Position numbers and translations under genes: made by a program
In this document: in pieces, positions 7,034 to 50,590 of the stretch
Position numbering within the stretch: the stretch's first letter is position 1
Layout: every line of letters begins with the position of its first letter
Assembly (NCBI GenBank): GCA_964017235.1
Contig: OZ024931.1
Span: 137,270,033-137,334,032 of the forward strand
Length of the DNA stretch: 64,000 bases
Origin: Sabellastarte sp. h YS-2021
Taxonomy: Eukaryota > Annelida > Polychaeta > Sabellida > Sabellidae
Reading direction: 5' to 3'
Notes under the pieces: generated by a model
Seen by the model: only the letters and a program-made list of their open reading frames with translations
Database searches by the model: none
Told to the model about the DNA's origin: nothing

Positions 7034-8270
7034 TCAACTTGTCAGAACAAGACTTAAAAGTTTGTTATGATATTTTCCCTGCATCTGTCTCTTACACTAG
7101 GATTTAGTTCTGATTAATTTTTACTCATATACAAACTGTCACTTTCTGTTAATTCAGAAGAAAAAGGTTGGCAGGTTAACAGGAGAGTGCTTAACAGTCA
7201 ATATGATTACAAAATGATGGACGGTGATTTTGGCCTCAATGATGTCAGTTACTTTAAGTAACCTTTTCCATCGTCACTGGTTCTGGGTCAATTTGTTTGA
7301 GAGAGACTGGGGTCTGTATTGCTTAGATCCTGTAGGGCGACATTGAATCTTTGAAGACCTAGTAGCGTCAAATCTAACATACAAATATTTTGGGCTTAAA
7401 ACATTGCACTGATCATCCTGTTTGCATAAATACCACTCTTTTTAGAACAATCCAGTATTAATGATTCTACAGTTGATTTATTTACTCTAAATTAGCCATT
7501 TCTCCTGTCAAAACCTGCTAGTGAGAAACTGTGTGTACTACGTACACAACTGTGTACACAACAAATATGATTGTACCATGAATGCTCTGTGTGTGCATAC
7601 AGAAACACACAGTTTCAGTGTGGTGTGTTTTTTTTCTAATTTGCATTTGTGTATGTAGACAATCATTTATCATATATATGTCTGATAAAAATAATTTTTA
7701 TAACTTAATTGATTTTGATGATAATAATAGTGTACAAAGTAGCAAAAATAATGGAGAGAACACAGACCTTCCCAGATAGGATTGATAGGAATGTACAAGA
7801 ATAAAGCCTTTTAACTTTTGGGCCTGTATATCTGATAATGAAAGTAGTAATAAAAAGGATAATTTGGACCAAAATTATTCATCTAAACTTCATTGGTAAG
7901 ACAGTATTGACAACATTTGAATGCTTAACAGTGAGATATATACTGCATTATCATATTGGACAATAATAAAACATTTTATATCTGGAACCAGAATCTTACA
8001 AATGTGCAATATATCATATCTGGTTTTATAGGTTCTCGGTGATGGTGAGGATGTGGGACATATGGGTTTGGAAATTGAAAATCAGGGGTTAGATTTAACC
8101 TTTAACTTTTAAAAAAGAGAATATGATACCATAGATTTTTCTGAATTTTTTTCATGTCTATCAAACAGTACAAATGCACGTTTTAGAATCATATACATAA
8201 ATCTTTAAAAAATAATCGTTTTCTTAATTGTCTAAGTATTCTTCAACACAGTAGATTATAATGTTAATTA
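7034..8270. other. Gene-free stretch
   Basis: AT-rich with short chance frames only. It has some CA/GT-rich runs near 7520-7660. No domain, repeat array or transposon end was recognised. Confidence 0.5.
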
Positions 8271-8482
8271 GGGGCCATAGTGACACAGTGGTAACATTCT
8301 CGCCTCCCAAGATTGGTGGTTCAAACCCTAAACCTTATGTGGGAAAGTAGTTGCTTACCAATGGTAGCCAGTTTACATGAACTGTATGCTCTGGTTTCCT
8401 CTGCTCACAGAGCTACCCGTCATCATATCACCTGTACAGTGTTCAAAGTGTTGTAAAACCCCAAATAAATAAATAAATATAA
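8271..8482 (+). mobile_element. tRNA-derived SINE
   Basis: The 5' end GGGGCCATAGTGACACAGTGG contains an A-box-like string (TGACACAGTGG) and GGTTCAAACCC at 8318-8328 is a good B box, so the head is tRNA-related. The body includes CTGGTTTCCTCTGC and ends in CGTAAAACCCC-like sequence (here TGTAAAACCCC) before an (AAAT)n tail at 8464-8482. A second copy of the same family lies on the minus strand at 39272-39498. A weak possible target duplication (TATAATGT on both sides) is not exact at the boundary. Confidence 0.8.
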
Positions 8483-8499
8483 TGTATATGAATACGGCA

Positions 8500-9280
8500 G
8501 GAGATTTAAACACATTGTTGAGTAAGTCTATTGTAACTCCAAAGTTGTTGCAGTTAGAATATTTGTCTAACATATGCTGTTCACTTATTTTGTCTTAACT
8601 ACCATATGGCACAGATACGAGCTCCATTGCATATAATAAATGACTAATAGCTATTTTCTCATTTATAGTTAAATAACAGAAATAAATGTTAAATATCTTT
8701 AAAAGATTTACAGTTAGGCCAATGTAGGTTAACTATTGGTCGTACAAATTATTGTATGCTAAGTCAATGCATAGGCAATCATGTGTTGTGAAACTTTTGT
8801 TGTTGGATTTGTCCTATGACCCCCTCCTTCAAGATCAAATGGGGATATACTATCTCCAAAGGGCCTAAAAACTCATTTATTTTTTCTCTTAAAGTTTGGG
8901 GATGTTAAACTAACCTCCAAGAATCTTGGGCTGTGGATCTTATGATTGTTTTTTCACTCAGTTACCTTTGGGTCAGGAATAGCATACTTAGATTTCAGAC
9001 TGTAGCTCATTGCATACCAATCAATAGCTATTTTGAGATTCTCACTACTGAATACACCATGTGTAACTTTTAAACTGTTACAGTTGGAATATTTTGTTAA
9101 AGTATTTTACCCATCTAAATATAGGTCAGCTATAATATGGTAAGTTTGCAGACCTGCAGCTTATAGCACAGCTGACAATAGAAATTCTGAGATTCTAACT
9201 ATTGAGCAAATTGTTTGTAAATTGAAAACTATTGCACTTAGAATGTTTAGTTAAAATATTTACTCATTACTTTCTGAAAT
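8500..9280. repeat. Degenerate copies of a ~130-bp repeat family
   Basis: Strings such as GAAAACTATTGCA, TTAGAATATTT, CAGACCTGCAGCTTATAGCA and ATAGCTATTTT recur at loose spacing. The same vocabulary (TTCAGACCTCTAGCTC, GAGTAATAGCTA) forms the tandem block at 34015-35200. The copies here are too diverged to delimit units by eye. Confidence 0.5.
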
Positions 9281-9635
9281 AACTAAATTTTTTATGTCTA
9301 TATTCCTGTATTCACTGTCAGTTTACATACAATGATTCTTCAGATTTTTTTACATGTTTTTATCTGTTCATATGTATTTGTGTATATGTGAAACTCCTGC
9401 ATGAAACTTATATGGTGCATGTATTTTTCTGGTTTTATTTTTAAAGGAGTTTTGTTTTTGTCATTTTTGTCTGTCATGTATATGTTTTATTGGTTAATGT
9501 CTAAAAATTTTGGAAGCTTATTACCCCAAGTTGTATGTCATATTTATTCTGCAATGTATTTATACCAAATGGCAGTATATTCCTGAGTACATATTCACTT
9601 TATTCTATACAATTTCTATATTTGACATATTGCAT
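9281..9635. other. AT-rich stretch upstream of LINE fragment
   Basis: A 61-codon open frame (9401-9586) is hydrophobic and T-rich and looks like chance. It could contain the decayed ORF1/5' part of the LINE that starts to be recognisable at 9636, but I see no homology. Confidence 0.4.
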
Positions 9636-10434
9636 GTCCCAACATCAAGATTATCTCGGGAAATTGTCAAGGATTAAGAGATATTTATAAGCGAACAGAT
9701 ATTTTAAATTATCTAGCTGATAATGGTCCCGATATTCTCTGTCTGCAACACACACACTGGTTAACTGATGACCAAAAATTTATTACAAAAAGTGAATGTC
9801 TTCTAAATGATACAAGAACAAATGCTAGGGGGGGGGGGGGGGGGGGGGGGTGCAATTTTGATAGAAAAAAATTTGAATGCAAAATTTCGTCAGTACAAGC
9901 TGATGACTGTGGTAACTTTATTTCTGTCCTAACTTTGAGTGAATTTAGTATTAGAATAGTAAATCTTTATGCCCCAAATATTGATTTCCCCAACTTTTTC
10001 AATTTTGTAAAAGAGAAAATTGAAATATTAGATCATGATAACTGCATCATTTGTGGAGACTTTAACCTTGTATTAGAACCAACAATAGACTGTCACAATT
10101 ATAAAAACAATCCAAAAGCTAGAATTACCTGATTCAGTCAATGAATTCATTACACTTAAAAGATGCTTTCCGTTATTTTAATGAAGATTTAAAGCACTAC
10201 ACATGGCATTGAAAAAATCCAATCAGGTGTGCTCGGCTCGACTATTTCTTGGTGTCTGACAACCTCATAGATTTGATTAATAAATGTGATACCAAACTAG
10301 GATACAGGTCCAACCATTCATTTATCAAGCTACATTTAACAATTTGTAAATTTAAAAGAGGTAGAGGTCTGTCAAAGTTTAAATGTTCACTTTTAAAAGA
10401 CACAGATTACCTGATTTGCATAAACAACTTAATT
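9636..10434 (+). pseudogene. L1/Tx1-type LINE, endonuclease part (5' half)
   Basis: The frame beginning at about 9636 reads NIKIISGNCQGLRD, then DILCLQHTHW, VNLYAPN, CIICGDFN, RLDYFLVSDN and YRSNHSF, in the order of an apurinic/apyrimidinic-type LINE endonuclease. The usual LQETH glutamate is replaced (LQHTH) and the SDHS aspartate is Asn (SNHS), so the nuclease is dead. A 23-nt poly(G) run at 9828-9850 sits at the normally Gly-rich G-V-x-I-L-I segment and breaks the frame; another shift lies near 10130. The element stops abruptly at 10434, where DIRS element 1 is inserted, and resumes at 16754 with matching reading context (INNLI then EKLNYAV). Confidence 0.85.
9828..9850 (+). repeat. Poly(G) run of 23 nt
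   Basis: An uninterrupted run of 23 G residues lies inside the decayed LINE endonuclease frame. It is a homopolymer expansion of a Gly-coding patch. Confidence 0.9.
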
Positions 10435-10440
10435 GTACGT

Positions 10441-10460
10441 CCCGGCATCTGGGTGCCGGG
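10441..10460 (+). promoter_or_regulatory. Terminal hairpin of DIRS element 1
   Basis: CCCGGCA, loop TCTGGG, TGCCGGG forms a perfect 7-bp stem 6 nt from the element start. The same layout (GATGGCA, TTTGGG, TGCCATC) opens element 3, with different stem bases but preserved pairing and loop. It may be a recombinase or reverse-transcription signal. Confidence 0.6.
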
Positions 10461-10696
10461 TAGTTCAGCCCTAGGGGCCCCTAAGTTCGGTTTCTGATAG
10501 TATTAGCATATAGCTTGCCCTGATTTTTGATTGGTCAGTGGCTGGTCACCTTGGGGCTTGACCAGTGATTCGGCCATTTGAAACTTGGAGGTGACAGGGG
10601 TGACATTGCAATTATCAGAAGCCATTTACAATTACATTTACAAGTTATTTTAGGTTTTTTAGTTTTTATTGTTTTAAGTATTCTTTTTCTGACGAC

Positions 10697-11857
10697 ATGG
10701 CTGCATCCACTCATCAGTATAACTTACGATCGGCTGGTCAGGGCACTGTAGAACTACCTGTGGAACTTCATATGTCAGAGGACAGCACGTTCATGAAGGA
10801 ACTCCTGGCTTCCCAACAGGATTCAGAAACCGGGCAAGTGTCAGACAATGATTCTTCCATAAATGAATCAGATTGTGAAGCGTTAATTGCTAGTTCTGAG
10901 AGTGATGATAATGATTCCCGGGAACATGTTGTAAAATCACTCAAAAATTCTAGAAAGTCGGATCCGACAATGTCGGACTCTCAAAGTACCTCTCAGCAAG
11001 CCATTAATATCCAAATTCTTGAACAGTTACAGTCACTTGGTAAAAGATTGGATGTTATGGGAAAAAATTCTTGTAAAAAGAGTACTGACACCACAAAAAT
11101 CAAAAATCAAACCTACAAATCAAAGGTCAAAGCCCAACCAGCGGTCACACCGCCTCCTGCCCTCCAAGAAACCAACGTGCATGATTTACATTCTTTGAGG
11201 CAAGATGCCAACCTTCAATTTCAAGTTGAAAGGCGGTCACAGGAATTGGCTTCCCTTAACAAAACAGGTACTAAAGTTAAGTCTTTAAGGGGGGTCCAGT
11301 TGAAGTTTTAGTACCCAATCGAGTAAAATGGCCCCATGAGTATGTCCTATCTGGTAATTCAAAAGAAAGAATATCTTATGATCAGTTGTCCATTACACAG
11401 TGGGTGGCTGGTTTTGGTCGCATCATGGAGGAGGAAAAAAATTCTGAAATTAAAGATTCCATGCTAGATTACTTGGTCTCACTCTTTGATGATGCCAATG
11501 ATTTCTCCTGGGATGCGGCCAAGGCCAGCCACGCCGTTTTACTATGTAGAATGGAACAAGGGGAAATAAGAAATTATACTGAGTTCGAAAAGATTGACAG
11601 AATTAGAAGGGCACATGCCCAAAGACATAGCCAACCCCCCCAAAGTTATCAGCATGCAAACAAAACAGGTCAAAGAAACAACAAATCCATGCCCTGTGTT
11701 CTACAACAAAGGGACATGTAATCAGCCCAAAACACATGAAACACGTGGAATTCTGTACAGACATATATGCTCTGCCTGTTTCACCAATGGTAAGGCTTTC
11801 AATCACAGTGAAATCGAATGCAAAAACAAGTTGAAAAAATTGTCAAAAAACGAATAA
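10697..11857 (+). pseudogene. DIRS element 1 ORF1 (gag-like)
   Basis: Starts with an ATG giving MAASTHQYNLRSAGQGTVEL, matching the MYNLRSSS start of intact element 3 ORF1. It has an acidic, Ser-rich N-third, a coiled-coil-like QILEQLQSLGKRLDVM segment, the conserved core LSITQWVAGFGR ... AKASHAVLLCRMEQGE, and a C-terminal Cys/His cluster (C, C, H, then HICSACF, H, C). The frame shifts at a G6 run near 11291-11296 and back near 11700, so it is broken in two places. It ends in LSKNE* exactly over the -1 frameshift heptamer. Family knowledge: ORF1 of these elements is the nucleocapsid-like protein. Confidence 0.85.
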
Positions 11858-11884
11858 CTTTGGGTGCTCATATTATGAGTACCC
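11845..11884 (+). promoter_or_regulatory. Predicted -1 ribosomal frameshift signal (element 1)
   Basis: In the ORF1 frame the codons are TCA AAA AAC GAA TAA, so A_AAA_AAC (11845-11851) is a correctly phased X_XXY_YYZ heptamer two codons before the stop. After a 9-10 nt spacer, GGGTGCTCAT (11862-11871) pairs with ATGAGTACCC (11875-11884), 10 bp with one G-U. The -1 frame continues directly as ORF2. Elements 2 and 3 keep the same arrangement. Confidence 0.75.
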
Positions 11885-14551
11885 ACACTTATTCTCATAG
11901 ATTTGTCTTTAATTCTACAAATTTCACTGCTAAGTTGGAAAGTCAAGTCCACAAAGATATAGCCTTACAATGGTATCGAAAATGGGCTAGTTTCAAAAAT
12001 ACATCACCTAATATGACATATGCCCAAGCAGTCAAAAACAATAGGGCTAAAAATAGTCATATTAACAGGGATAGGAATGCCATGCTTGCATCTCCCCCCA
12101 AAAAACACAATTCGCGTGACCCTCCCAAACACCCTGTCCATGTGAACACTGCTACGGACAAATCTGCGTGTTGTGTAAAGAAAACAAAAGTCTTGCGTAA
12201 TGAAAAGAATGTACCTGTCGCATTGTCCAATAGATTTCAAATATTGGATACTTTACCCGACGACAACAATACCTGTACCAGTCAGAGTATCTCTCGCGAT
12301 TCAAGCGTGTATAGTACTGAATTAGAGGACGGGGATACAAGCAAGCGTTCTTTTCAGCACTCATGGGAGTGCAAACATCCCTCCAGTCTTGGTACTATCC
12401 AGCCCTTGTTGGCTGTGCAGGAAAATTCACATTGTCAGGGCAATAAAAACAAAACTGGGTCTTTCGTTGGGGAAAACATGCATACCAAGACTAAGTCTGA
12501 CAATTTGACAGCACCAAATTTGTCAGATTTACATGTGACTTCCTGTGAAACATCACAAGTTGTTACGGATTTTCCACACATATCACAAGACCTTGGCATT
12601 ATTTACCAGCCCCAGTTGGCTGAAACTGAACATTCTTTCTTGGGCAATAAAAACAAAACTGGGTATTTTGATGGGGACATTAGAAATGCCAATGACTTGC
12701 AAGATTTGAGTGTTATGTATGAGAACCATGGTGATGTTATTGATGTGATGGACACTGCAATTTTACATCAACTTTCAGACCAAAACTGTAGCCGTAATAG
12801 TACGAATGACTCAAGTCATGTTAAATACCTACCATATGATACTGTTGATACAAGTGAATCACAAACCTTTGGCTTTATACCAAAAGGTACCTTAAAGTTA
12901 TACGATGGTGACCCAGGAGTTTGTAACAGCATACCAGATATCATAAGTGCACATTTACTAGTTAAAGACAGTGGTTGTCCAAATTTTTTGGGCTGTAGGA
13001 TCCCTGTTGTGTCAAATCTCAAATGTGAAAACTGGTCTTTCTATTTAAAACAATATTGGGACAAACAGTTACCTGATTTGCTAAAATTTGGATTTCCTCT
13101 GGATTTTGACCATAATTGTGTTTTACATGCCACGGAGGATAATCATAAGTCTGCATTACTCAATGCTCATCATGTAGATAATTATATTGCAGAAGAATTA
13201 AGCCATCAGGCCATTTTGGGCCCCTTTGATACAAAGCCAATTAACTTACATACCTCTCCCCTCATGGTCAGGGATAAGCAGGATAGTCATAGTAAGAGGA
13301 CCATTATGGATCTCAGTTGGCCTGAGGGCCATTCAGTTAATTTTGGCGTGTCTAAAGACCTGTACCTGGGCACTGAATTCATATTAAAGTATCCTTCTAT
13401 TGATACCATCACTTCTTCCTTGAAAAAATTGGGTCCTGCTGCTATGATCTACAAAATAGACATCAGCAGAGCTTTTCGTCAGATCAAAGTAGATCCTGGG
13501 GACATTGACCTATTAGGTTTTAAAGTTAATAATCAGTATTTTCTCGATCTTTCGGTCGCTTTCGGCTATAGAAATGGGAGCAGATCTTCCAGAGATGTAC
13601 AGATGCAATAAGATACATTATGTCCCATTATGGTTTTCACAATCTCCACAATTATATTGATGATTTAATATATACTGGTCTCCCCTCAGAAATTCATGCT
13701 TCATATGTCTTTTTGAAACAGATATCTCCATGAAGAAATTAGTACCCCCTAGTACGATTGTAACATGCTTAGGCATTCAAATTGATACTGTTAAAAGAAC
13801 ACTCTCAATTCCAGAAGGTAAGCTACAAGAAATTACTAACTTGTGTAAAAATTGGGTTTCAAAAACTTACTGTAGCAAGAAAGATTTACAATCTTTATTA
13901 GGAAGTCTACTATACATCACCAAGTGTGTAGCTCCAGCCAGAGCATTTTTGAACCGAATGTTACTACTGCTACGTCAGAACACCCATGTATCAAAAATAT
14001 TATTAACACAAGATTTTTTTCAGGATCTGGCTTGGTTCAACACTTTTCTTCAGTTGTACAATGGGGTCACCTTTTATGATCAAGTTCCTTCCAACATTGA
14101 AGTGCATTTAGATGCATGTTTAACAGGATTGGGTGGCCACTTTGGAAACATAATCTATACTTTACCCATACCCCTGGGGTTCGAACAATATGATATCACA
14201 CAATTAGAGATGATCAATATTGTAGTTGCAGCAAAGATATGGGCTTCCCATTGGTCCAACAAGAAAATTTGAATATATTCTGATAACATGGCTGTCGTTC
14301 AAGTTCTTACTACAGGCAAAGCCAGAGATCAAATCCCTGCAACATGCGCTCGTAACATATGGCTAATAGCAGCCATTAATAATATTCAATTCCAGTTTTC
14401 ACATATCCCTGGTAAAAATAACAACCTGGCTGACCTGTTGTCCAGATGGCACATGGTTCACAATAGAATTGATAAGTTACATTCACTTATTTCCAATTAT
14501 GTCTGGATTCCCACCCACCTTACCTTAACACATCTTAATACCTCAATATAG
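11848..14551 (+). pseudogene. DIRS element 1 ORF2 (RT and RNase H)
   Basis: The frame entered by the -1 shift is open to 13611. A ~350-residue N-terminal linker contains two NKNKTG motifs; then come FGFIPKGTLKLY, FGFPLDFD, AILGPF, IMDLSWP, IYKIDISRAFRQIKVD (first RT Asp) and YIDDLIYTG. A frameshift near 13575 precedes the YIDD part, and another near 13725 removes a few residues before KLVPPSTIVTCLGI. RNase H follows: HLDACLTGLGG, QLEMINIVVAAKIW, then an in-frame TGA (14270-14272), SDNMAVVQVL and NLADLLSRW. Catalytic residues of both enzymes are still readable, but the copy cannot make a full protein. Confidence 0.85.
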
Positions 14552-14552
14552 C

Positions 14553-14577
14553 ACTGCTTTTCTTTCTGTATTTCAGA
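14553..14577 (+). promoter_or_regulatory. Candidate splice acceptor before the recombinase frame
   Basis: A pyrimidine-rich stretch (CTGCTTTTCTTTCTGTATTT) ends in CAG right after the ORF2 stop; the recombinase frame is open immediately downstream without an ATG. Element 3 has the same arrangement (TATATTTTTAG), in the same codon phase. No donor could be assigned. Confidence 0.4.
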
Positions 14578-23405: not shown

Positions 23406-25124
23406 CTATTGTAAATGGTTTTGTACCCACCATTTTTTAACCTTTAAAGATCCATGACGAAATCCGAATGCCAAAGCACGATCTAAGAAGTATTGGTTTC
23501 CAAATTTCATGCCTAATAAGTCAATATCGCCTGAGTCGACTTTTATATGACGAAAGACCCTACTTATGTCAATCTTATACATTTGAACAGAAGGACCAAG
23601 ATTCCGTAATGAATTCATTATAAGATCAACTGAAGGGAATTTAAGTTCATAATGAGTACTCAGATATACATCCTTAGCCACCCCATTGTTTACAGAAGTA
23701 CCCTTGGGCCAACTAAGGTCCATAATGGTTCTCTTTGAACTAGAGTTTTGTTTATCTCGTACAAGTAAGAGAGATGTGCATGTCAATGGGTTTATTTTCA
23801 AAAGGACCTAGTATGGCCTGATATTGAAGTTCTTCTAAGAATTTAGAGATATGACCTGTGTTCTCATTGGCAGAAGTATGGTTCTCTTCCACAGAATTTA
23901 ATGGACATTCCCTATCAAAGTCAAGAGGGAATCCATATTCTAGTAGATCACACAACTGTTGATCCCACTAATTGGCCAGATAATATCTCCATTTGGGGAT
24001 ATTAAGACCTGAGTTCACAGGTATACGGCAGCCCATGTAATTGGGTAATTTGCTGGCTTTTACTAGAGTGTGTGCTTGCAGAATATCTGGAACTTCGTTC
24101 CAAGTAACTGGAGATCCTACATATAACTTAAGTGAAGATTTAGGAATAAAACCAAAGTCCTTAGTTTGTTTCAATTCTGATTGCTCAAACATGTGGTCAT
24201 ATGGTGCAACATATTCTAAAGTGATAGATGGATCTAAGGCCATCTCTTGATATTGAGGCTCTAAGTTTCCGGTTTGAGTATTATCATCAATTGACTTGTG
24301 CATACTAAGACTGTCTGTGGTTGTGCCGTGACAATCCTTGTCAAAGGATGTAGAAGTAGCATTACGTTTTTGAAGAGAGTCCCTTTTCAAAAATTCAATT
24401 TTTTGTTTCGCCAATTTTTTATTTGACTTGTGAACCAAAACAGTTTTATCAATGGAACACTCATTTGCTTTGGCATTTTTAAGTACCCATTGCTAACAGG
24501 CTGCTTTTGTGTAAAGGTGATGCTGCTAATGTCATTAGAATCCCCTTCCAAAAACCCATTTTTGTTTTTTTTTCCCACAAAAGTACTTTTGGTCTGGTCA
24601 GTCAACATCGGCTGAATAGAGCAAACATCATCCATAGGTATTTGCAGCAAGGGTTGAAACCTATTGGTTAATTGCAATGGCTTCATAGCCTCTGTGGCCT
24701 CGGTCACACTACCATTATTTCCAATTTTTTGGCAATTTTTGTAATTTTTACAATCTTTTACTAACACTTGCCTTTTATATGAGTTTTGAGATTTTACTTG
24801 TTGATAAGTGTGCCGACGCTTTTTGCCAAACTTGCTATTATCAGCATCAGAACTACTTGTATATGACATATGACATCTTCTAGGGACTTGCCAAATTTCC
24901 TCAGATTGTGGTATTTCTTGGTAAAAGTTACACAACAAAGCTTGTGCATACGATTTATTTTTATCTATTATATCAAAAGCTTTAAAATTTTTAAACCAAT
25001 GCACTACCGTTTCTTTGTTGGTACAAAGTTCAGATCTACCAGCCGGCAAAAAGGAATTGTACAAAAATCTAGAGTGAAATCTTTGGGTGAGGACTGTTTC
25101 GGACCCACCACTCTTTACTCGTTT
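23406..25124 (-). pseudogene. DIRS element 2 ORF2 (linker and N-terminal RT)
   Basis: Entered from ORF1 by the -1 site. The linker has TNRFQPLLQIP and GKKNKNG, then a frame change near 24400, then FGFIPKSSLKLY, LPNYMGCRIPVN and a stop where Trp is expected (near 23965). RT motifs follow: YGFPLDFDREC, AILGPFENKP, IMDLSWPKG, MYKIDISRVFRHIKVD and ALAFGFRHGS. The gene is cut off before the YxDD motif. Confidence 0.8.
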
Positions 25125-25127
25125 TTT
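25084..25127 (-). promoter_or_regulatory. Predicted -1 ribosomal frameshift signal (element 2)
   Basis: The ORF1 codons TCA AAA AAC GAG TAA place A_AAA_AAC (25127-25121) in phase. Downstream TGGGT (25107-25103) can pair with ACCCA (25088-25084). The -1 frame runs on as KKRVKSGGS into ORF2. Confidence 0.65.
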
Positions 25128-25785
25128 GACAATTTTTTGTTTTTGTTTCTGCAATTTTGTTCCGAATGGTTAAAAGTTTTGCCTGATTGCTGAAAGCAAA
25201 AAGCACAAATGTACCTGTAAGTGATACCTTTAGTGTCGTGTGACCTTTGGTGGACACATGTGCACTGATTGTAGTATGAACAGTTAAGGACTTTGCCTTT
25301 TACCTTTTTCTGTGAATTTTGAGCCTCATTAGTTGAGGAAAAGACACGTCTTTGAGCATTAGCTCTCCTAATTCTATCTAATTTCTTGGTTTTGGTATGA
25401 TTTTTTACCTCACCCTGTTCCATTCTACAAAGCAGCACTGCGTGGCTGGCCCTTGCCGCATCCCAAGAAAACTCATGCATATGATTTGATAGCCTGCTTA
25501 TTGGCAGCATCGGATAATGCATTCACCCCAGGTAAAGTACTTGAAGTACTAGAAGTACTATGTGTGTTTTCTGTACAGGGGTTCTGTTCATCACCCAAAC
25601 TCTCTACTACTGCAATCTAGATCAGATATATCTGATTCATCCGCATCCGAATTTTGTTGATTTTTTGACAATTTTGACAAAAATTCTGAGTCACTGGTCA
25701 TATGTATTTGCACAGGCAGTTGTACTGAGTTTGAAACAGAACGTAAATTATACTGTTTCTTGCCTTTCTCTGCCATTTTGTTCAT
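25115..25785 (-). pseudogene. DIRS element 2 ORF1 (gag-like, internally deleted)
   Basis: Begins MNKMAEKGKKQYNLRS (the QYNLRS start shared with elements 1 and 3), runs about 64 residues, then has a deletion and stop near 25590. It resumes at the C-terminal core FSWDAARASHAVLLC, RMEQGEV and the Cys/His cluster ending NKNKKLSKNE*. Compared with the 392-residue intact ORF1 of element 3, about 200 residues of the middle are gone. Confidence 0.8.
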
Positions 25786-31100: not shown

Positions 31101-31190
31101 GACATCACCCGACAATAGAACCAGAGCAAGCTGCCTGAAAGATGCCTTTTCACAAAAAGTGACTCTATGTGTCCTGACATAAATGAACAA
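28137..31190 (-). CDS. LINE ORF: 2A-like peptide, APE endonuclease, reverse transcriptase
   Basis: 1,017 codons without a stop. Residues 28-36 are GDVALNPGP, a 2A-like motif. The endonuclease follows at once: N43 (ANCRS), E70 (LTETH), GDFN at 178-181, HTLDLL near 217 and SDH at 240-242. The RT spans about 450-760, with SYRPVSGLSFLSKLVER, D601 in LVLLDRSAAFDTIDHD (Arg is unusual after the Asp), FGVPQGSVLGPLLF and YADD at 692-695. The tail has LHWLPVRQCI and YDAPKLWNDLP, usual for this group. The codon used here as residue 1 is TTG; the frame is open further upstream to about 31325 without any ATG, so the true start is unknown. An intact frame suggests recent activity. Confidence 0.9.
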   Translation of the reverse strand: MFIYVRTHRVTFCEKASFRQLALVLLSGDVALNPGPLKFGFANCRSIRNKGPILCDEIQTGNFDVFGLTETHSKALDTPSFLNELTPEDFSLVHTNRENKCGGGVGFFIKSALDFKTIHFPEFSSFENHTVCLTLDGHRLFLGVIYQPPPSSVVKFFEDFLSYVGFLSSLSPSFVICGDFNLHVDIMSPTVSEFKSVMDSCCLSQYIDFPTHLHGHTLDLLMAPSEFSAISDVKGSGFISDHKIISCVVDFPSLDTPIQKVVTFRQYHKLNIDKFRSDLLTILFVSSPSDDIDLLHEQYMSGLSSLLDIHAPVKTKQLIKPAPSWITDEYRTAKCMRRQFERAWRRDKSPENHSRLRRQINRCNHILNRNKGCFYRDLVSENNKRLWHALNRTLSRSNSTVLPSFDDEKSLANRFGSFFIDKIKKIRDTFKYTRSQVLHPDKEPPTFCSFQAVTETEVLKFIKESPSKTCSLDPCPTHIVKQCIDILLPSLTKLVNLSLKNGIFPNPFKQAIVTPLLKKSTLSKEDLKSYRPVSGLSFLSKLVERIVAAQIRSHMDSHDLGNTFQSAYKVGHSTETALLCIKNEIHLSLSKGMPTALVLLDRSAAFDTIDHDTLLSCLSSRFGFAGSALKWFRSYLQDRFQSVKIGSSLSNLFKLKFGVPQGSVLGPLLFSLYTTPLSQVIRKYTGVRYHFYADDTQLFIHLSPDDSLKSFDRLKSCLNDIQVWMSENKLKLNPDKTEFIVFGAKDRHKWLSDSLPVNILGNCLSPADVVRNLGVLFDAKFCFTNHVNSVIKSCFISLRDLHRIRRFLSVDTSMVIANALVSSRLDYCNSLFCSLSSQSATRLQYVQNALARFVTGASKYTHITSTLRTLHWLPVRQCIIFKTLVLVYKYLTTGQPKYFAPYLPLYKSAVNTRRSNPKNLFLLVPSYCPSIHKSKVHFNNSFSYDAPKLWNDLPYDIRSAPNLSSFKVDSKPTYFRNHSHHSFLLQNTGPPPWQRLGTCLMSHDLCLTDWMVCLRIH
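31083..31109 (-). promoter_or_regulatory. 2A-like translational recoding motif
   Basis: Encodes GDVALNPGP preceded by the hydrophobic LALVLLS. The classical core is D-V/I-E-x-N-P-G-P; here Glu is Ala, which may lower activity. 2A-like sequences are known at the N-terminus of APE-type LINEs of several invertebrates. The endonuclease begins within three residues of the Gly-Pro junction. Confidence 0.7.
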
Positions 31191-31639
31191 AATGGATTTG
31201 GTAGTGGGTCCATCATATTTACGTCCATGCAGGCCGACATCGCACCTAGTCTGAATTCTGTTTTGACTCTTATGGTAATGTACAAAGAGGCCAACAATAC
31301 AAGGAAAGAAGTGTAACAGTACGCATCATAAGGAATTACAAACCACAGATGAAATGGAAACATGCAAAAATTGACAGCGAATAAAGACACGGATTTTGTG
31401 CTTGAGTGTTTCTCTTGAATCAACAAAATTTAAATGTGATGTTTATTTCAAAAGGTTTAGTGGTCGCTTAAATATCATTTTTTGAGGGGCATCCTCAGCG
31501 CTGAAGTGAGTGTGCGCGATGGGGGACGGTATGTACATAGTAAGAGAAAAATATATCACTGAAAAGTTAGCTTTTACTTATCACACAATATAAGTATAAC
31601 ATTAAGGAACACAAACAAATGATTCAGAAAAGATAGTAA

Positions 31640-41059: not shown

Positions 41060-42141
41060 GTGATTGATCAGATGCATATGAAATATGTTGACCATTTCTA
41101 GATGGACTATTGTACACTCTTTGTAACCCTTTTCCTGTGGGAGGAAATACACCAGGTTTCCAAATCTACCCTCCAATCCTGTAAGGCAAGGATCTAGGTC
41201 AATAACATGATCTATACTTCTATGATCATAAAAATTGACACCATAAGGAAGGAACTTGGCAAACCAACGAACATTGAGTGGACAATCTGACGTAAGCATG
41301 ATTTTTGAGAATTTTGACTGGATCTCAGCAAATCCAACATCCTATTTAGGAAAACTCGAGCTGGCTTAATGCACTTGAGAACGTATAAGAGTAATCTCAG
41401 AATGGACTGTAACTGCCTTTTGGTACATGAGCATTTCTCAAGCCATTCCTTGACTGTGTCATTTATCTGATGCAACTTGTCAGAGGGTATAGAAATAGTA
41501 CCTGCGACAGTGTCTTTGCCCAAAGAAACGACATTTGTTGAGGGAGGGACTAACTTGCTCTGACCTAAATGTTCAATGAGGGTCAATAAATGGTCTAAGG
41601 CACGTTGCCTATACCAATGTAGTCATCAATATTATCGATGATGTAGAAACTAGCTTGACACATCAGGAAACGCACAGCATCACTGATACATTGAAAAATT
41701 TGACTTCAATGCCATGTCTCAAATGGTAGACAGGTGTCCATGTACGTCCCATTCAACTCAAGGCCTAAGAGGTCATAATCCTCAGGGTCCACCTTGACGT
41801 GTCTGAATGCATGACTTACATCAACTTTGTATAGGATGACACCCCTACCTAGGAGTTTCACCTCATTTGTGATACCATCTACCGAGGGGAAGGTAAGGTC
41901 AAACTGACTGTCCAAATATGTATTTTTGTTAATACCAGAATTGACTGATGCCCCCAACTAAGGTCTATCATAACACAAAGCTTATCAGAATTTGGCTTAT
42001 GTCTGGTCATGAAGGGTGAACACTGTCCCCTTTCAATGGGATTCTGGTGAAATGGACCCAAAATTGCATTGAACTCAGTTTCTTCTTCAATATAAGTGTC
42101 AACATTTGACGGGTAGTTGACTGCAGACGAGTGACTTTTTC
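41060..42141 (-). pseudogene. DIRS element 4, 3' part (RT and partial RNase H)
   Basis: Read from 42141 downward: SHSSAVNYPSNVDTYIEEE, NAILGPFHQNP, LCVMIDLSWG, VILYKVDVSHAFRHVKVDPE, then IIDNIDDYIGI (YIDD box variant), SKLVPPSTNVVSLG, CIKPARVFLNRML and DPCLTGLEGRFGNLV (RNase H), ending in HLEMVNI at about 41085. It is in phase with the 5' part at 49628 if element 3 is removed. Frameshifts near 41590, 41700 and 41920. Confidence 0.8.
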
Positions 42142-42828
42142 ATTTCAAGTCACCCTTCCCCCCAAGACAATGAAATGCAAATGTGGGATAATATATTATT
42201 TTTATTATAAAACATGACATCATTTATTTATTGTAACATGTCAGCAATATTATATAATATAAAAGTGTCATTAACAGACAGATAAACATGTAATATAATC
42301 TTATTTCCCAAGTAATTTTGACCCAAATTTTGAACCCAGGCTTGATCAGGGACACAAATTTCTTTGCTAACCCGAAAGCCATAAAATGTTAACATATCCT
42401 CAATATTGCTTTAAGGCTATGCTATAAAATTTACCACATAGATATTGCACAGCCAATATATACTAGCACATTGTGCAAATGTATGAATGACTAAACATTT
42501 GCCAAAAAACCCTGTCACTAGAATAGAAATTGCACAATACAGTGTTTAACCCTCCCCAACATTAAGATACACACCACTAATATATATAACAGCCCAAAAA
42601 CTGGGCGGGTACCCAACCACAGTTGTGAACCTGACCAAAGTTGCCTATACTTAATTACTAAAACTTTTGAACTACCCAATGCACAAGTGACAGAGAAGCC
42701 AATTGGACTATTGCTACTTTACTTTTTTAACTTTAACAAGAGCAATGCCTGGCTTAGTATCAGCTAGTATTGTATTTGTATATTTACACACATGAAATTT
42801 ATGATATTCTGTAAGCTAGAAACTGCCA
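42142..42828 (-). repeat. B2 split direct repeat (element 3)
   Basis: 687 bp matching 43687-44373 with about three substitutions. Its outer end carries GTCACCCTTCCCCCCAAGAC, the reverse complement of the conserved 3' terminus. Confidence 0.9.
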
Positions 42829-42953
42829 TTGGACTATTGCTACTTTACTTTTTTAACTTTAACAAGAGCAATGCCTGGCTTAGTATCAGCTAGTATTGTA
42901 TTTGTATATTTACACACATGAAATTTATGATATTCTGTAAGCTAGAAACTGCC
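42702..42953. repeat. 126-bp tandem duplication at inner end of B2
   Basis: ATTGGACTATTGCTACTTTA...AAACTGCC occurs twice in direct succession (starts 42702 and 42828). B1 has only one copy, so the duplication arose after or during insertion. Confidence 0.9.
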
Positions 42954-43493: not shown

Positions 43494-43686
43494 GCATAAA
43501 ATTCTGCATGTGTCCTCGTTGCTTCCTAAAATTGAAATGGCAGAATGAATGTGGTAATTCAGAGAGGTCTCCCGCTGTCCAGTCTTGACTAATAAGGGGA
43601 GTATATGCAAATTTTTGGTGTATGCTAACATAAAGAAAGAAGGGAAACCGAAATGAGCCCGATGGCACCCAAATGCCATCTAACAC
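43494..43686 (-). repeat. A2 split direct repeat (element 3)
   Basis: 193 bp matching A1 (49435-49627) with two substitutions. It joins B1 directly at 43686/43687 and includes the terminal hairpin. Confidence 0.9.
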
Positions 43687-44373
43687 ATTTCAAGTCACCC
43701 TTCCCCCCAAGACAATGAAATGCAAATGTGGGATAATATATTATTTTTATTATAAAACATGACATCATTTATTTATTGTAACATGTCAGCAATATTATAT
43801 AATATAAAAGTGTCATTAACAGACAGATAAACATGTAATATAATCTTATTTCCCAAGTAATTTTGACCCAAATTTTGAACCCAGGCTTGATCAGGGACAC
43901 AAATTTCTTTGCTAACCCGAAAGCCATAAAATGTTAACATATCCTCAATATTGCTATAAGGCTATGCTATAAAATTTACCACATAGATATTGCACAGCCA
44001 ATATATACTAGCACATTGTGCAAATGTATGAATGACTAAACATTTGCCAAAAAACCCTGTCACTAGAATAGAAATTGCACAATACAGTGTTTAACCCTCC
44101 CCAACATTAAGATACACACCACTAATATATATAACAGCCCAAAAACTGGGCGGGTACCCAACCACAGTTGTGAACCCGACCAAAGTTGCCTATACTTAAT
44201 TACTAAAACTTTTGAACTACCCAATGCACAAGTGACACAGAAGCCAATTGGACTATTGCTACTTTACTTTTTTAACTTTAACAAGAGCAATGCCTGGCTT
44301 AGTATCAGCTAGTATTGTATTTGTATATTTACACACATGAAATTTATGATATTCTGTAAGCTAGAAACTGCCA
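43687..44373 (-). repeat. B1 split direct repeat (element 3)
   Basis: Begins 10 bp after the recombinase stop codon and is nearly identical to B2. Confidence 0.9.
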
Positions 44374-44382
44374 AATGCCAAA

Positions 44383-45344
44383 CTAAAGTGAAAGGTGCTG
44401 TTGGAAAGTGCGAGAAACTTGAGAGGAGGAAGATGGTACAGATTTAATGTAAGTCCATACTGCATTGGAGGACCAAGTGCCATGTTTCATAATTTCTTGT
44501 CAGGAAACTCCATTCTGGAATGCCCAGGTAGTGGCAGACTTTCTAAAAGAATGGAATGTTAATGGTGGTTCAATGTTTAACATTGTAGAGATCATTTTGA
44601 GATGCTTCCTAGCTGCAGAATCAGCCAATGTCACAGTTTTACCTTGATGCATGTTTAGGAAGAGAGGGGAATTGCTTGAAGAAGGAATAGCTGCAATCAT
44701 TTTTTGCAAAGCTGCAATGGGACACAATGCTGAATCACCTAAAGCAGGAATGGAAATAGTTGAAGTTTCTTTACGATCTTGCATCGTTTTTGACCATTTA
44801 ATTATTACTGTACAGAATTTTTGACCAAAAATTAGATCTCCTCGAGATAAATGCTTTGTAACGTCAAAGGCAGATGCAGAATGCGGAAGGATATTTCAAA
44901 GTCTCATGAAGGAAAAGAAGCAAAACAGATATAATGCCTTGTATACTAGAGGTTGTTGTAATGCACTGGTCATATTTACAATTTCTTGGAGCATCTGAAT
45001 TGAGATAATTTTGACGGTTCTGGGTTTGAATACTGCATTAATCTTAAGGGATTTGGTGTACAAGGTGATTCTGTGGTCTTTAAAGGGTTCTGTGTTCAAA
45101 CCATGAATAATGAACATGGCCCTTATTGCAGCTAAATGATTTGAGATAGTGGAATGTGATATACCACTACTATAACAAAATTCCATGAAGGACAACAATA
45201 TGACAGTATTCACCTGCAGCAGTTGAAGATTTTCAATCTCAAGGAAAGCTAGGAACAGTGTGAACATTCTACGATATTGTAACCCGGTGGCTGGTCGAAA
45301 ACCTGTGTGTAGCCTATTTATTGCTGCAGTAGCAAATCTTGAAG
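44383..45344 (-). pseudogene. DIRS element 3 tyrosine recombinase
   Basis: Open from just after a candidate splice acceptor (TATATTTTTAG): SSRFATAAINRLHTGFRPAT, LLSFMEFCYSSG, then the catalytic domain with Arg in FFSFMRL, KWSKTMQDRK, SFRKSATTWAF in LTFHSFRK (H-x-x-R), KHGTW and VWTY. The frame is unshifted but has in-frame TGA codons after FMRL (44896-44898) and after NGVS (44500-44502). The protein ends SSSQVSRTFQQHLSL*. Length matches the family; two nonsense codons make it inactive unless read through. Confidence 0.85.
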
Positions 45345-45366
45345 AATCTAAAAATATAATATATAG
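45345..45366 (-). promoter_or_regulatory. Candidate splice acceptor before recombinase (element 3)
   Basis: TATATTATATTTTTAG lies between the ORF2 stop and the first recombinase codons, at the same place and phase as the CAG in element 1. Confidence 0.35.
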
Positions 45367-48019
45367 TTAAACATTCATATTTAACTTGGTGTGATCCAGA
45401 TGTACTGGCATCCAGATGTACTGTGGGACAAGACTGGACAGCGTTTGAACTTGTACTTTGGTGCCCTTCCATCTAGACAATAAATCTGCCGTGTGATTTT
45501 GAGCACCTGAAATGTGGTTAACAGTTAATTGTATGTTAAATAATGAAGTTAACAGCCAAATATTCCTAGCACATGTTGCTAATACAGTATCTCTAGCCCT
45601 ACCTGATCTTAATACATCTACTACTGCTAGATTGTCACATTTAAGCTCTATAATTTTATCTTGCCAGTATTCACCCCATATCTTTAAGGCAACCACAATA
45701 TTTAAGATTTCCAAGTAAACTATAGTGTAATTTTTATATTCTAAAGGAATTCGCAAATGATAGACCATATTATCAAAAGCACCCCCAAAACCAGTCAAAC
45801 AAGCATCCAAATGCACTGTATATTGTGGTTTCTGATGGTCATAGAAAGTCACTCCATTATATTGATTTAAGAAAGTGTTAAACCAATTCAAATCTTTATA
45901 AAATTTGTTATCTAAGGTGATTACTGACTTAACTGTGTTATCCCTCAACAATTGCAACAGTCTGTTTCCCCAATAACAACTGAAACTGATTTTTTGTAAC
46001 TCTAGATTTAAAAGCAAAGGCTGAGCAAATTTGCTGAATTTCTTTTAGTTTCTCTGAAGGTATTTTTAAGGTTTTATCTACCGTATTAATCTCTATACCA
46101 AGGCATACGGCACACGAGGTAGGGGCAATTAACTTGGACTGGCTGATTTCCAGACCTAGCTCCTGTAACAAACCGAGCAGAGTACTGTAAGACTGATGAA
46201 TATCCTGCGGTAGTCCCGTATAGACCAGATCGTCAATATAGTTGTAAAGATACGGAAATTTATATTTGTGCTTCATTATGTACCGTACGGCGTCCGTACA
46301 CCTCTGAAAGAAAACTGAACCATGCCTAAAACCGAATGGAAGCGTACGATCAATAAAGAGATGTTCATGTTGAATTCCTAAAAGATCCAAGTCCCCAGGA
46401 TCAATCCTAATGTGTCTAAATGCTCTACTAATGTCTATCTTATAAAGAAGTGCCGTAGGACCCAAAAATTTTAAACTGTTAATTATGGTATCCACTGAGG
46501 GGTAGTTTAATTCAAAATATGTGTCTAAATACTTGTCTTTTGCTACACCATCATTAACAGATTGGCCTACTGGAAAACTTAAGTCTAAAATGACACGCCT
46601 GTTTTCTGAGTGAGGTTTCTCCCTAGTTAGAAAGGGGGATACATGACAAGGGAAAGGATATTCCTTAAAAGGGCCTAATATAGCTTCATATTCAATTTCA
46701 GTTGAAATATATTTATGAACATGTTGTGGAAATTTAATTGCCGAGGAATGGTTTTCATATGTGCCATTCAAAGGCTTGGAATGATCAAAATCAAGGGGAA
46801 ACCCATATTGCAAAAGGTCAACAATTTGCTTGTCCCAATATTCAGATAAATATGATTTCCATGCTGGTATGTTAAACTGAGCATTAACAGGAATTCTGGC
46901 TGCCATAAAATTTGGCATGTTGGAATTTCTAATAATTTTATGTGCGTCTATTATATTGGGTACATTACCCCATACAATTTCTTTTCCTGAATAAACTAGT
47001 AGATCATTCATAGGCAAAAACCCAAAGTTTTTGCCATTTTGATATACACAGTTTCGATAATCTTTAGAGTGAAATGCATTAAGGCGAATAGCCTCTGGTA
47101 TGTTACGTTTACGTTTATGGGCAATGCCCCCCGTATCATAAATCATAAACATATTATCTCCCAGTTGTTGCTGCTCGCATGCTAAATCATGACTTGCAGT
47201 TACTGGGTCTATGTTTTTGTCAACATTTTGAACATTTTTTCCCATGTTTTTTTAGGTAACTTTAGCATTTCGAGGCTCAGTGCCCAATTTGGCCCTAATT
47301 CCGTTTTTATTGCCCCTGAATTTAAATTTTGCCTCGTGACAATTTGCTGTGGTTTTGGTGCAATTTGTTTGTGTGATCTGACACAATCTTTGGCCCATTT
47401 TATTTGTATTACTTTGTACAGAAGTTGCATGGACCACGCCATTTTTCAGTTCACATGATTTTCCCAATGTTAGCCCAGTTTTGTTTTTATTGCCTTCCAA
47501 TTTGTTTGTAAAAGTATCATGTGTTGCACCATGATGACTTTGCCCATTATCATCATTATCGTCTTCTTTATTTCTCAGTAATTGAAATTTATTACTTACA
47601 GGCCAGCAATATTCCTGAGTATTGGTATTTAATCTCAATTTTCCAGTACCAGCATTTGATGAAGAGTTATCAATTTTGTGTACTACTTTGACCTTGCGCT
47701 TAACTCGAATGCATTTGCTGGGAACGCATTGAGAATCTCTGTGACAAGGGTTTGAAAGTACTTGTGATTGACCATTGCGTTTGAAGCTTTGCTTCGAAAC
47801 GCGTTCTTGTGTCTTATCAAGTAACTTAGTCGAAAGAACTTGAGCAAATGTTTTGTTTGCGACTTTTGTGTTAAATGATTTATTAACCATAAACCAATTA
47901 ATCCACTCATCACGTGAGGCTTGTAATTCTCTATTTACAGTATCACGAGAAACATTTTTATTTACAAATGTTCTATCTACATGGGTGAGCACTGTATTGT
48001 GTCCACCCATTCCTATTCG
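45367..48019 (-). pseudogene. DIRS element 3 ORF2 (RT and RNase H)
   Basis: Entered by -1 frameshift. The linker (about 250 residues) includes SNKFQLL and EGNKNKTG and is cut by one TAA at 47252-47254; the same frame continues. RT: FGFLPMNDLLVY, YGFPLDFDHS, AILGPFKEYP, VILDLSFPVG, LYKIDISRAFRHIRIDPGD, LPFGFRHGSVFFQRCTDA, YIDDLVYTG and SKLIAPTSCAVCLGI. Near 45985 a deletion of about 20 codons plus a shift joins QLLLG to NRLLQLLRDN. RNase H is complete: HLDACLTGFGG, YLEILNIVVAL, CDNLAVVDVL, NHTADLLSRW. The active-site residues are all present; one stop and one deletion inactivate it. Confidence 0.88.
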
Positions 48020-48025
48020 TTTTTT
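47981..48025 (-). promoter_or_regulatory. Predicted -1 ribosomal frameshift signal (element 3)
   Basis: The ORF1 codons TCA AAA AAC GAA TAG place A_AAA_AAC (48025-48019) in phase, two codons before the stop. After an 8-nt spacer, ATGGGTG (48010-48004) pairs perfectly with CACCCAT (47987-47981), 7 bp with a 16-nt loop. The -1 frame reads on into ORF2. Confidence 0.75.
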
Positions 48026-49191
48026 GAGCCTTTTTGCTTGTTCTTACATTCTACTTCTGAATGAGGAAATGTTTTTCCTGCAGATGCAAAACAAGAAGCA
48101 CAAATGTGCTTATATAAGACCCCCCTGGTCTCATGGGATTTCTTTTGAAGACATGTTCCCTGATTGAAATAAGTGCAAGGCATAGATTTGGTGATTTTTG
48201 TGAATTTTTTGCCATTGCTAAATTCTTGAGGGGACGTTTGAGAATATGGGACATGTTTTTGAGCATTAGCTCTCCTAATTCGATCTATAGCCGAGATGTC
48301 AGCATATGAATTAACCTCTCCCTGTTCCATCCTACATAATAACACTGCATGGCTGGCTTTGGCCGAAATCCAAGAGAAATCATTAGCATCATCCATGAGG
48401 GAGATCATGTAATCAAGCATGTGTTTTCTAATTTCCAGATCTGACTCATCCCTCATGGTCCGACCAAAGCCAGCCACCCACTGTGTAACAGAGAGCTGGT
48501 CATACGTGACATGTTCTTTTGATAGCCCTGACAAAATATACTCATGAGGCCATTTAATGCGATTTGTGACCATGACCTCTACCTTTCCGCCTCTCTGAGA
48601 CTTAAGTTTCGGGTTCATACCTGTCTTAGCAACATCCGTAAGTTCTTGCAAACGCTGCTCAACTTTAAGTTGTATTAGGGCATCTTCTTTCACAGATTGC
48701 AATGTGGGCAATTTATGATCATCAAAAGTTTTTGGTTGTTGTTTGACAGTTGTGTTAACCACTTGTTGTTGTTTGACCTTTGTTTTCTTAATTTTTGTTT
48801 TATCTGAAGTCTTTTTACAAGCATCACCCTCTATTTTATCCAATCTTTTTCCTATTTGTTGCAATTGTTGCAAGATCTGAGAGTTAATAACCGATTGCAC
48901 TTGCAAATTCGACGCGACATCAGCTGCTTCAAAATCTAAACCATGTGACTGTTTACTCTGTTTGTTGATTCCATCAGATGTGGATTGAATCTGCTCATCC
49001 GAATGTTGAATTAAAGCATCACAATCAATATCACTGTCTGATGTTTCATTCGAATCCGACATAGTTGGTTCAGTAGTAAGTGATGTCTGTTTATGATGTA
49101 ACAAATCTTTCAAAAATTGGTTATCATCAGCTAATTCAATTTGAACGGGAAACTGAACCGTATCCTTACTACTAGATCTGAGATTGTACAT
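48013..49191 (-). CDS. DIRS element 3 ORF1 (gag-like), intact
   Basis: 392 codons from an ATG (MYNLRSSSKDTVQFPVQIEL). The N-third is acidic and Ser-rich (SDSNETSDSDIDCDAL). A predicted coiled coil follows (NSQILQQLQQIGKRLDKIEG), then a basic segment, the conserved core WPHEYILSGLSKEH, LSVTQWVAGFGRTMRD and SAKASHAVLLCRMEQGEV. A C-terminal Cys/His cluster (CTYFNQGTC, SHETRG, HICASCF, FPHSEVEC) is likely a zinc-binding nucleic-acid-binding domain. It ends GSKNE* over the frameshift heptamer. This is the best reference for the damaged copies in elements 1 and 2. Confidence 0.9.
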   Translation of the reverse strand: MYNLRSSSKDTVQFPVQIELADDNQFLKDLLHHKQTSLTTEPTMSDSNETSDSDIDCDALIQHSDEQIQSTSDGINKQSKQSHGLDFEAADVASNLQVQSVINSQILQQLQQIGKRLDKIEGDACKKTSDKTKIKKTKVKQQQVVNTTVKQQPKTFDDHKLPTLQSVKEDALIQLKVEQRLQELTDVAKTGMNPKLKSQRGGKVEVMVTNRIKWPHEYILSGLSKEHVTYDQLSVTQWVAGFGRTMRDESDLEIRKHMLDYMISLMDDANDFSWISAKASHAVLLCRMEQGEVNSYADISAIDRIRRANAQKHVPYSQTSPQEFSNGKKFTKITKSMPCTYFNQGTCLQKKSHETRGVLYKHICASCFASAGKTFPHSEVECKNKQKGSKNE

Positions 49192-49434
49192 AACGAGACA
49201 TTGGTTAAAATACTAAAATACTATGCACGCGCCAGTATTGTATCATATAACATTAATATTGCACATGTTATATTCAACACATTTATAATATATAACGAAG
49301 AAGCATGTAAATAGTATATCACGAGGACAAAGATTGAATAAAACAATGTAATGATGTAAAATACTAAAATACTAAAACATAAAAAGAAAACCATACAATA
49401 TCTGCAAACACGTGTTGTATTCATATGATTTCCA

Positions 49435-49627
49435 GCATAAAATTCTGCATGTGTCCTCGTTGCTTCCTAATATTGAAATGGCAGAATGAATGTGGTAATT
49501 CAGAGAGGTCTCCCGCTGTCCAGTCTTGACCAATAAGGGGAGTATATGCAAATTTTTGGTGTATGCTAACATAAAGAAAGAAGGGAAACCGAAATGAGCC
49601 CGATGGCACCCAAATGCCATCTAACAC
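49435..49627 (-). repeat. A1 split direct repeat, 5' end of element 3
   Basis: 193 bp; the outer end GTGTTAGATGGCATTTGGG contains the terminal hairpin GATGGCA-TTTGGG-TGCCATC (49602-49621). The flanking base pair beyond 49627 belongs to element 4. Confidence 0.9.
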
Positions 49628-50590
49628 CTTCACGCCTCAATGGACAATTCCTATTGAAATCTAAAGGGAAACCAAATTCTATCTGTTGCAAAAATTGTTG
49701 GTCCCAATAATTTATTAATCATGACTTCCACTCCCTTACCTTTAATTGCTACTTCAGTGGAAGCCTGGCTTCCACGTAGTTAGGTTTGTTCATGGCTCTG
49801 ATGAGAGAATGGATGTTAAAAAGTGACAAGACATCTGAACAATTAACCACACTAATGTCAGGCATTATTTGTTCATCGAGGGGAACAACGCCAAATTAAA
49901 ACTGCGATTGGTTCTAACATTTTTTGAACAAAGTACAATTATTTTGCTCCTGACACTTCACACCTTGGGTGCCAACATGGAAAGTGCACTGGTAAATTTC
50001 TCTTCAATACCTGCCAAATTTATGTTGTATACAGGACAAGTTTGCAAGTTTGATTGTTGATTCGTATCAACAACGCAGCCTCAGTGTTCACACTAACACG
50101 ATGCCTGGGACTGCCTACCTGACATTCCCAAGCTCAAATGTCAATAACACAATGCTTTTGAGGCGACAAAGTGTCAATCATGACTTCAGAGATGGAATCG
50201 ACTGGACTACTGACAGAATTTGTAACACATTTAACAACTTCAGATATGGCACAGGTGGATTTGTTTTTCGATGCAAGAAAATCAGAGGTTTGAAGCTCTT
50301 ACCTTTGCAAGCAAGACTAGCTTCTACCATTGCTATATTGACTTTTTGAGTTGTATATTACTCTACTTTTGTGTATTTTTTGTCATCATGTAGACCACCA
50401 TCTGTGCCATGACTGTCACTTTTGAGTACTTCACTGTACACTACACTACAAGAGTGATTGCTACACAAAATTTTGCTTTGAACTTTTTACATTATTTTTC
50501 ACCTGTTTTTTGTACAGCTGCCCAGCCCTAGTGACTGACAGCTCCTGGCTCGTTTTTGAGCTATTCTTTTTGTGTATACAAACTTTTTCT
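49628..50590 (-). pseudogene. DIRS element 4, ORF2 N-terminal part
   Basis: Minus-strand text near the insertion: FGVVPLDEQIMPDISVVN, HSLIRAMNKPNYVEARLPLK, WDQQFLQQ, FGFPLDFNRNCPLRREG, ending at 49628 and resuming at 42141 in the same frame. Between 49870 and 50590 there are many stops. The linker is poorly conserved, as in other copies. Confidence 0.7.

Follow-up and report, generated by a model that had tools for sequence, protein, structure and literature searches.

How do the retroelements at this annelid locus make their reverse transcriptase? Many retroviruses produce their copying enzyme by a −1 ribosomal slip; to our knowledge, the control of the ratio of Gag, reverse transcriptase (RT) and recombinase in tyrosine recombinase (YR) retrotransposons has been little studied. 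The window analysed here, the whole 64,000-nt stretch of contig OZ024931.1 of Sabellastarte sp. h YS-2021, holds three elements with an in-phase A_AAA_AAC heptamer near the gag stop codon, E1 on the forward strand and E2 and E3 on the reverse strand. A fourth, decayed element on the reverse strand, E4, had been missed by the first-pass annotation and is split by E3. The junctions between gag (ORF1) and ORF2 carry the following features.

11845..11851, + strand: E1 slippery heptamer A_AAA_AAC, in gag phase
11855..11857, + strand: E1 gag stop codon TAA
11861..11885, + strand: E1 hairpin of 11 bp after a 9-nt spacer (z −7.5)
25121..25127, − strand: E2 slippery heptamer A_AAA_AAC, in gag phase
25115..25117, − strand: E2 gag stop codon TAA
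25086..25109, − strand: E2 weak hairpin of about 6 bp after an 11-nt spacer (z −0.3)
48019..48025, − strand: E3 slippery heptamer A_AAA_AAC, in gag phase
48013..48015, − strand: E3 gag stop codon TAG
47981..48010, − strand: E3 hairpin of 8+3 bp after an 8-nt spacer (z −3.4)
50552..50558, − strand: E4 homologous site CAAAAAC, with one A fewer
50515..50545, − strand: E4 hairpin of different sequence (z −1.4)

The three junctions of E1, E2 and E3 follow the pattern nnA AAA AAC GAR TAR in the gag frame, and the window holds exactly three mismatch-free copies of the 15-mer TCAAAAAACGARTAR. The E4 junction reads TCAAAAACGAG, followed by a hairpin unlike the others. The first-pass annotation had placed the heptamer in ORF1 phase just before the gag stop and ORF2, which encodes RT, in the −1 frame; both statements are true of E1, E2 and E3. 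It had further described a hairpin at each junction; the stem lengths and spacers are slightly different from those first given, and when the 45 nt downstream were folded singly, the fold was significant in E1 and E3 and not in E2. Because AAAAAAC alone occurs at chance frequency in this AT-rich DNA (29 seen in the window, 30.5 expected), only its phase, place and conservation carry weight.

The class of these elements can be read most fully from E3, which has the following layout, given here with the first open ORF2 pieces of E1 and E2.

49435..49630, − strand: E3 split direct repeat A1, 98.5% identical to A2
48013..49212, − strand: E3 gag ORF, stop to stop, 399 aa
47252..48043, − strand: E3 first open piece of ORF2, −1 frame
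45938..47251, − strand: E3 reverse transcriptase piece of ORF2, RVT_1 over the cut-off, YIDD by eye
44500..45366, − strand: E3 tyrosine recombinase frame without a start codon, broken by one stop
43686..44373, − strand: E3 split direct repeat B1, 99.6% identical to B2
43494..43689, − strand: E3 split direct repeat A2, 98.5% identical to A1
42141..42828, − strand: E3 split direct repeat B2, 99.6% identical to B1, after which E4 sequence resumes
11812..13611, + strand: E1 first open piece of ORF2, −1 frame, with a weak RVT_1 match below the cut-off at its end
24387..25169, − strand: E2 first open piece of ORF2, −1 frame

The repeats of E3 thus run A1, ORFs, B1, A2, B2, the order of split direct repeats, and a blastn comparison found its left end copied directly, not inverted, at the right side. 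E1 has the B1/B2 pair only, and split direct repeats looked for at the left end of E2 were not seen. Pfam matches in E3 exceeded the cut-off for RVT_1 and Phage_int_SAM (the YR N-terminal domain) and fell below it for RNase H and Phage_integrase (the YR catalytic domain); in E1, RVT_1 matched below the cut-off only and the YR piece had no match. By eye, YIDD and the YR motifs (R, HxxR, Y) are readable. No match to an integrase core or a protease was obtained in the 10 ORF pieces scanned with Pfam, and none to the Dam methyltransferase (PF05869) in the genome (82 candidates scored); the gap between RNase H and YR is short.

DIRS1-like elements carry inverted terminal repeats, internal complementary regions and a methyltransferase. 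E3 differs from them in that its repeats are direct and the genome gave no Dam match. Its repeats and domains mark E3 as Ngaro-like and not DIRS1-like, which refines the DIRS-order label of the first-pass annotation. Its layout matches that of Ngaro retrotransposons in passages of PMC4157794, PMC9210276 and PMC8547959, with split direct repeats (A1..B1A2B2), gag, RT–RNase H, YR and no methyltransferase. DIRS1-like elements are also YR retrotransposons with gag and RT–RNase H, often with overlapping ORFs, in passages of PMC3266345.

Several further observations concern the surroundings of the elements. The flanking frames, read by eye, suggest that E3 has inserted within ORF2 of an older E4 (49630 and 42141, − strand), and a partial third B repeat lies at 42828–42960. 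A Cys/His-rich motif is visible by eye near the C end of the E3 gag. E1 is flanked on both sides by frames that look like those of non-LTR retrotransposons by eye (9626–10132 and 17210–17686, + strand), suggesting that it sits inside a LINE-like element. A 73-bp repeat forms two mutually inverted arrays (31650–33770 and 36230–38420), and a 1062-aa open frame at 28137–31325 (− strand) reads by eye as a non-LTR retrotransposon endonuclease/RT.

Is the heptamer kept in other copies? We searched the genome (1.786 Gb, including the window), in which TCAAAAAACGARTAR had 799 exact matches, compared with 38 for the reversed pattern. So that the heptamer itself would not select the copies, we used as queries the gag protein pieces of E3, E4, E1 and E2 that end before it. 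For each query, 150 of 7,039 to 11,947 candidates were scored, and in total 159 junctions were used (49 for E3, 63 for E4, 27 for E1 and 20 for E2), the E3 and E4 of the window included; for the E3 query 50 junctions were examined and one, the 9.5-kb tandem copy L056, was excluded. The first 30 copies in the E3 and E4 samples were the top ranks and the rest were hand-picked, as were all copies in the E1 and E2 samples, the hand picks being chosen for a spread of scores and, mostly, for greater length of the open frame. The exact heptamer was present no more than 8 nt from its expected place in 130 of the 159 copies (46 of 49 for E3, 46 of 63 for E4, 22 of 27 for E1 and 16 of 20 for E2); since the copies share ancestry, these counts are of copies and not of independent events. 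Of the 67 copies whose phase was traced, 65 carry the heptamer in gag phase, so the in-phase conservation that the first-pass annotation had proposed to check extends well beyond the window. In the 29 copies without it, the C of the following CG had become T, an A was missing, an A had become G, other changes were present, or the stretch examined contained no junction; no common replacement heptamer was seen among them. From the heptamer copies we derived a non-redundant set of 65 junctions (90% cut over 70 nt), in which the heptamer and the preceding A are fixed by the way the set was selected. Relatives outside this genome were sought in viral contigs (RT, gag and YR alignments), GTDB genome contigs (RT) and phage records (tblastn), and nothing was found.

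Counted from the heptamer, the −1 frame runs through 200 or more codons without a stop in 52 of 67 copies, and the +1 frame through 100 or more in one of 67. The offset of the gag stop from the heptamer start is +10 in 44 of 65 junctions, +28 in 20 and +31 in one, and the 21 later stops fall in the hairpin loop (alignment A5), so that the heptamer, and not the stop, is the fixed feature. Nor is nnA AAA AAC expected from codon usage in gag, where 19 copies use AAC for 46 and AAT for 114 of 160 Asn codons and AAA for 300 of 452 Lys codons, with A in 28% of third positions.

A start codon for ORF2 was sought in the 65 junctions and was mostly absent. The frame opens 1–16 codons upstream of the heptamer in the 55 junctions with a visible stop, mostly without an ATG. 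Four of the 65 have an ORF2-frame ATG upstream of the heptamer (for 10 of the 65, the sequence examined did not reach back to the upstream stop), and 13 have one 9–15 nt past the heptamer start; in 34, none is found downstream within a stretch of up to about 137 nt. These counts bear on the idea that ribosomes come to translate RT by reinitiating after termination, or by leaky scanning as far as a start codon in ORF2, with the A-run and the hairpin incidental. In the 13 junctions with an ATG near the gag stop reinitiation is possible, but the scarcity of upstream ATGs and the 34 junctions lacking a downstream one speak against either route, and both leave unexplained why the heptamer is fixed when the gag stop can move; we regard this account as very improbable. 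The long −1 frame, the scarce upstream ATGs and the movable gag stop together favour translation of ORF2 as a fusion to Gag.

We then asked what lies downstream of the heptamer. A fold with z below −2 was found at 51 of the 65 junctions (median −3.4), and the 166 control windows gave 4 (median 0.0); for the first 56 junctions, those without the E2 sample, the figures were 48 of 56 and 4 of 148. Eight of the 14 junctions that miss this value are E2-like (2 of 10 E2-like junctions pass), and L027, L030, L104 and L144 have essentially no fold signal. By an automatic measure the spacer is 5–9 nt in 42 of 65 junctions, shorter spacers arising where stems were extended toward the heptamer and longer ones where the script cut stems at internal loops. 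Three stem sets were counted separately, with L027, L143 and L146, which the script had labelled E1-like, moved to the E3/E2 set (alignment A7) as their stems or neighbours fitted that register. Because the stem registers were derived from folds of the same sequences, which favours the percentage paired over that of slid controls, the following values are to be read with that advantage: 85.6% of cells are paired in the E4/D set (23 sequences; 16–49% when slid), 75.8% in A7 (30 sequences; 32–45% when slid) and 94.4% in the E1 set (12 sequences; 29–52% when slid).

Double changes occur at 8 of 13 pairs in the E4/D set, where one pair is A-U in 10 sequences and C-G in 10, and at 4 of 9 pairs in the E1 set. 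For A7 the slid controls come near to the true register in double-change pairs (9, compared with 4–9 when slid), so the support for this set comes from the percentage paired and from the covariation score (0.232, compared with 0.059–0.159 when slid). Stem sequences differ between lineages and the predicted pairing is kept. The covariation check suggested by the first-pass annotation thus gave kept pairing with double changes in three stem sets, the E2-like lineage being the weakest. What these comparisons show is the site with its phase and frame relation, its persistence from lineage to lineage, and paired stems in which both bases of a pair have changed.

The first-pass annotation had reasoned that intact copies with ORF1 and ORF2 in one frame would count against frameshifting. 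As tested here, 4 of the 600 gag matches listed for the four queries lay in an open frame of more than 900 aa, a threshold below which shorter single-frame copies are invisible, and the reading stands on this count. The four are L109, L108, L056 and L110. L108 has no exact heptamer and, by reading of the letters, an upstream shift. L056 (G000:C18:15530000-15539500) owes its long frame to a tandem duplication of ~2.8 kb, which has fused its ORF2 start to a second gag, giving a frame of 945 aa. L109 (G000:C2:174286990-174287240) has seven A at the slip run and a gag match within a 1232-aa open frame, and is possibly a natural single-frame fusion.

Such a copy is what one might expect if RNA polymerase or reverse transcriptase slipped on the six-A run and an extra A put RT in frame, an explanation with which the run being kept in heptamer copies and the changes of A-run length among heptamer losses also agree. 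Against it, the run is short, the C that closes it holds a fixed phase and a paired stem stands nearby, none of which polymerase slippage needs, and we give it as little credence as reinitiation. Least probable of all is that an overlapping coding constraint (K-N in gag, K-K-R in ORF2) conserves the site without frameshifting: the two frames do overlap there, but ORF2 is open for just those 1–16 codons upstream (55 of 65), mostly without an ATG, the site is kept despite differing flanking residues (Ser, Pro, Ala, Thr or Gln before it, mostly Glu or Asp after it), and the stems covary.

The gag/RT junction of these Ngaro-like elements is thus very probably a programmed −1 ribosomal frameshift signal that gives Gag–RT/RNase H, and the conservation, phase and covariation described above support the frameshift interpretation of A_AAA_AAC and hairpin put forward by the first-pass annotation. 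A ribosome translating gag would arrive at A_AAA_AAC, where a hairpin a few bases downstream would impede it and both tRNAs would shift back one base to AAA_AAA_C. A fraction of ribosomes would then go on in ORF2 to give Gag–RT/RNase H, and the remainder would end 10, 28 or 31 nt past the heptamer start, giving Gag alone. The slipping itself, its ratio and the element's need for it we infer from sequence. In passages of the review PMC5009743, A_AAA_AAC is among the most shift-prone heptamers, the spacer is 5–9 nt in many studied cases and, of 51 animal elements surveyed, 28 have pol in the −1 frame.

How, then, is the recombinase made? YR occupies a separate frame, of 327–354 aa in many copies among the matches listed, and sequences resembling splice sites lie in gag and ahead of YR. 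Both kinds are carried by E1 and E3 in the window.

48619..48620, − strand: E3 candidate splice donor CAG|GT in gag, phase 1
45348..45350, − strand: E3 candidate splice acceptor TAG before YR
11268..11269, + strand: E1 candidate splice donor CAG|GT in gag
14574..14576, + strand: E1 candidate splice acceptor CAG before YR

A succession of RT–RNase H stop, pyrimidine-rich tract and YAG, resembling a 3′ splice site, is seen at 14549–14577 (+ strand), at 45369–45347 (− strand) and in copies L169–L193. In a sample of 20 copies of the 150 listed, in which [CT]AG was chosen by pyrimidine content and not by phase, 9–12 of the preceding 14 nt are pyrimidines and the acceptor-like site has a constant offset modulo 3 to YR in all 20. 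The YR frame is open from this site to the YR match in 20 of 20, and no YR-frame ATG lies between the upstream stop and the match in 16 of 20. The C end of RT–RNase H was recognised in 17 of the 20; its stop precedes the acceptor in 14 of these, and the RT frame relative to YR is 0, 1 and 2 in 6, 5 and 6 copies, respectively. This varying relation fits the variable YR frame of fungal Ngaro elements, which is the same as that of RT–RNase H or shifted from it in passages of PMC3783388.

On the donor side, CAG|GTR was found at the matching place in gag in 54 of 58 E3-like and E4-like copies, the two groups that the counts cover (27 of 29 E3-like and 27 of 29 E4-like; L010–L038 and L060–L088), the E4-like count being lenient because the seven expected positions on which it relies were taken from the very set of sequences in which the site had been picked. 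Fifty of these sites are in phase 1 (25 E3-like and 25 E4-like). The site was picked by eye, a search by score alone giving several weak sites per copy, and CAGGTR occurs ~2 times per copy in gag. Splicing between such sites would connect gag directly with YR, leaving RT out; since the donor is in phase 1 and the acceptor leaves two bases, the N-terminal part of Gag would be fused in frame to YR. One search pattern for a processed, spliced E3-type copy had no match in the genome. On balance we lean towards one transcript that would give three products, namely terminated Gag, frameshifted Gag–RT/RNase H and a spliced Gag N-terminal part joined to YR, so that both enzymes would carry a part of Gag.

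The proposed signal is built like those of animal LTR retrotransposons and retroviruses, with X_XXY_YYZ in the gag frame, a short spacer, a hairpin and pol in the −1 frame. The elements around it differ: LTR retrotransposons have LTRs and a DDE integrase, whereas here there are split direct repeats (E3), a tyrosine recombinase in a separate YR frame and no match to an integrase core or a protease among the 10 ORF pieces scanned. No frameshift signal in Ngaro is described in passages of PMC3783388, PMC9210276, PMC4157794, PMC8547959 and PMC6681497, and programmed frameshifting in YR retrotransposons also goes unmentioned in passages of PMC3266345, PMC3212892, PMC10294476 and PMC12477816; the founding papers of Goodwin and Poulter, and the review of Poulter and Butler, may mention it. 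Where "frameshift" appears in these passages, it denotes mutations, the frame relation of YR or, in a reference title, the ciliate Tec2 element. Neither DIRS nor Ngaro occurs in the portions of the review PMC5009743 that we consulted.

A spliced Gag–YR product, if true, would account both for the lack of a start codon in most YR frames and for the varying position of that frame relative to RT. The conserved junction signal, if true, would mean that the control of the Gag to Gag–Pol ratio known from LTR elements also works, or has re-evolved, in the YR order, which uses a different integration enzyme. The many variants within one genome, with their differing stems, would form a natural series for the hairpin requirements of frameshifting.
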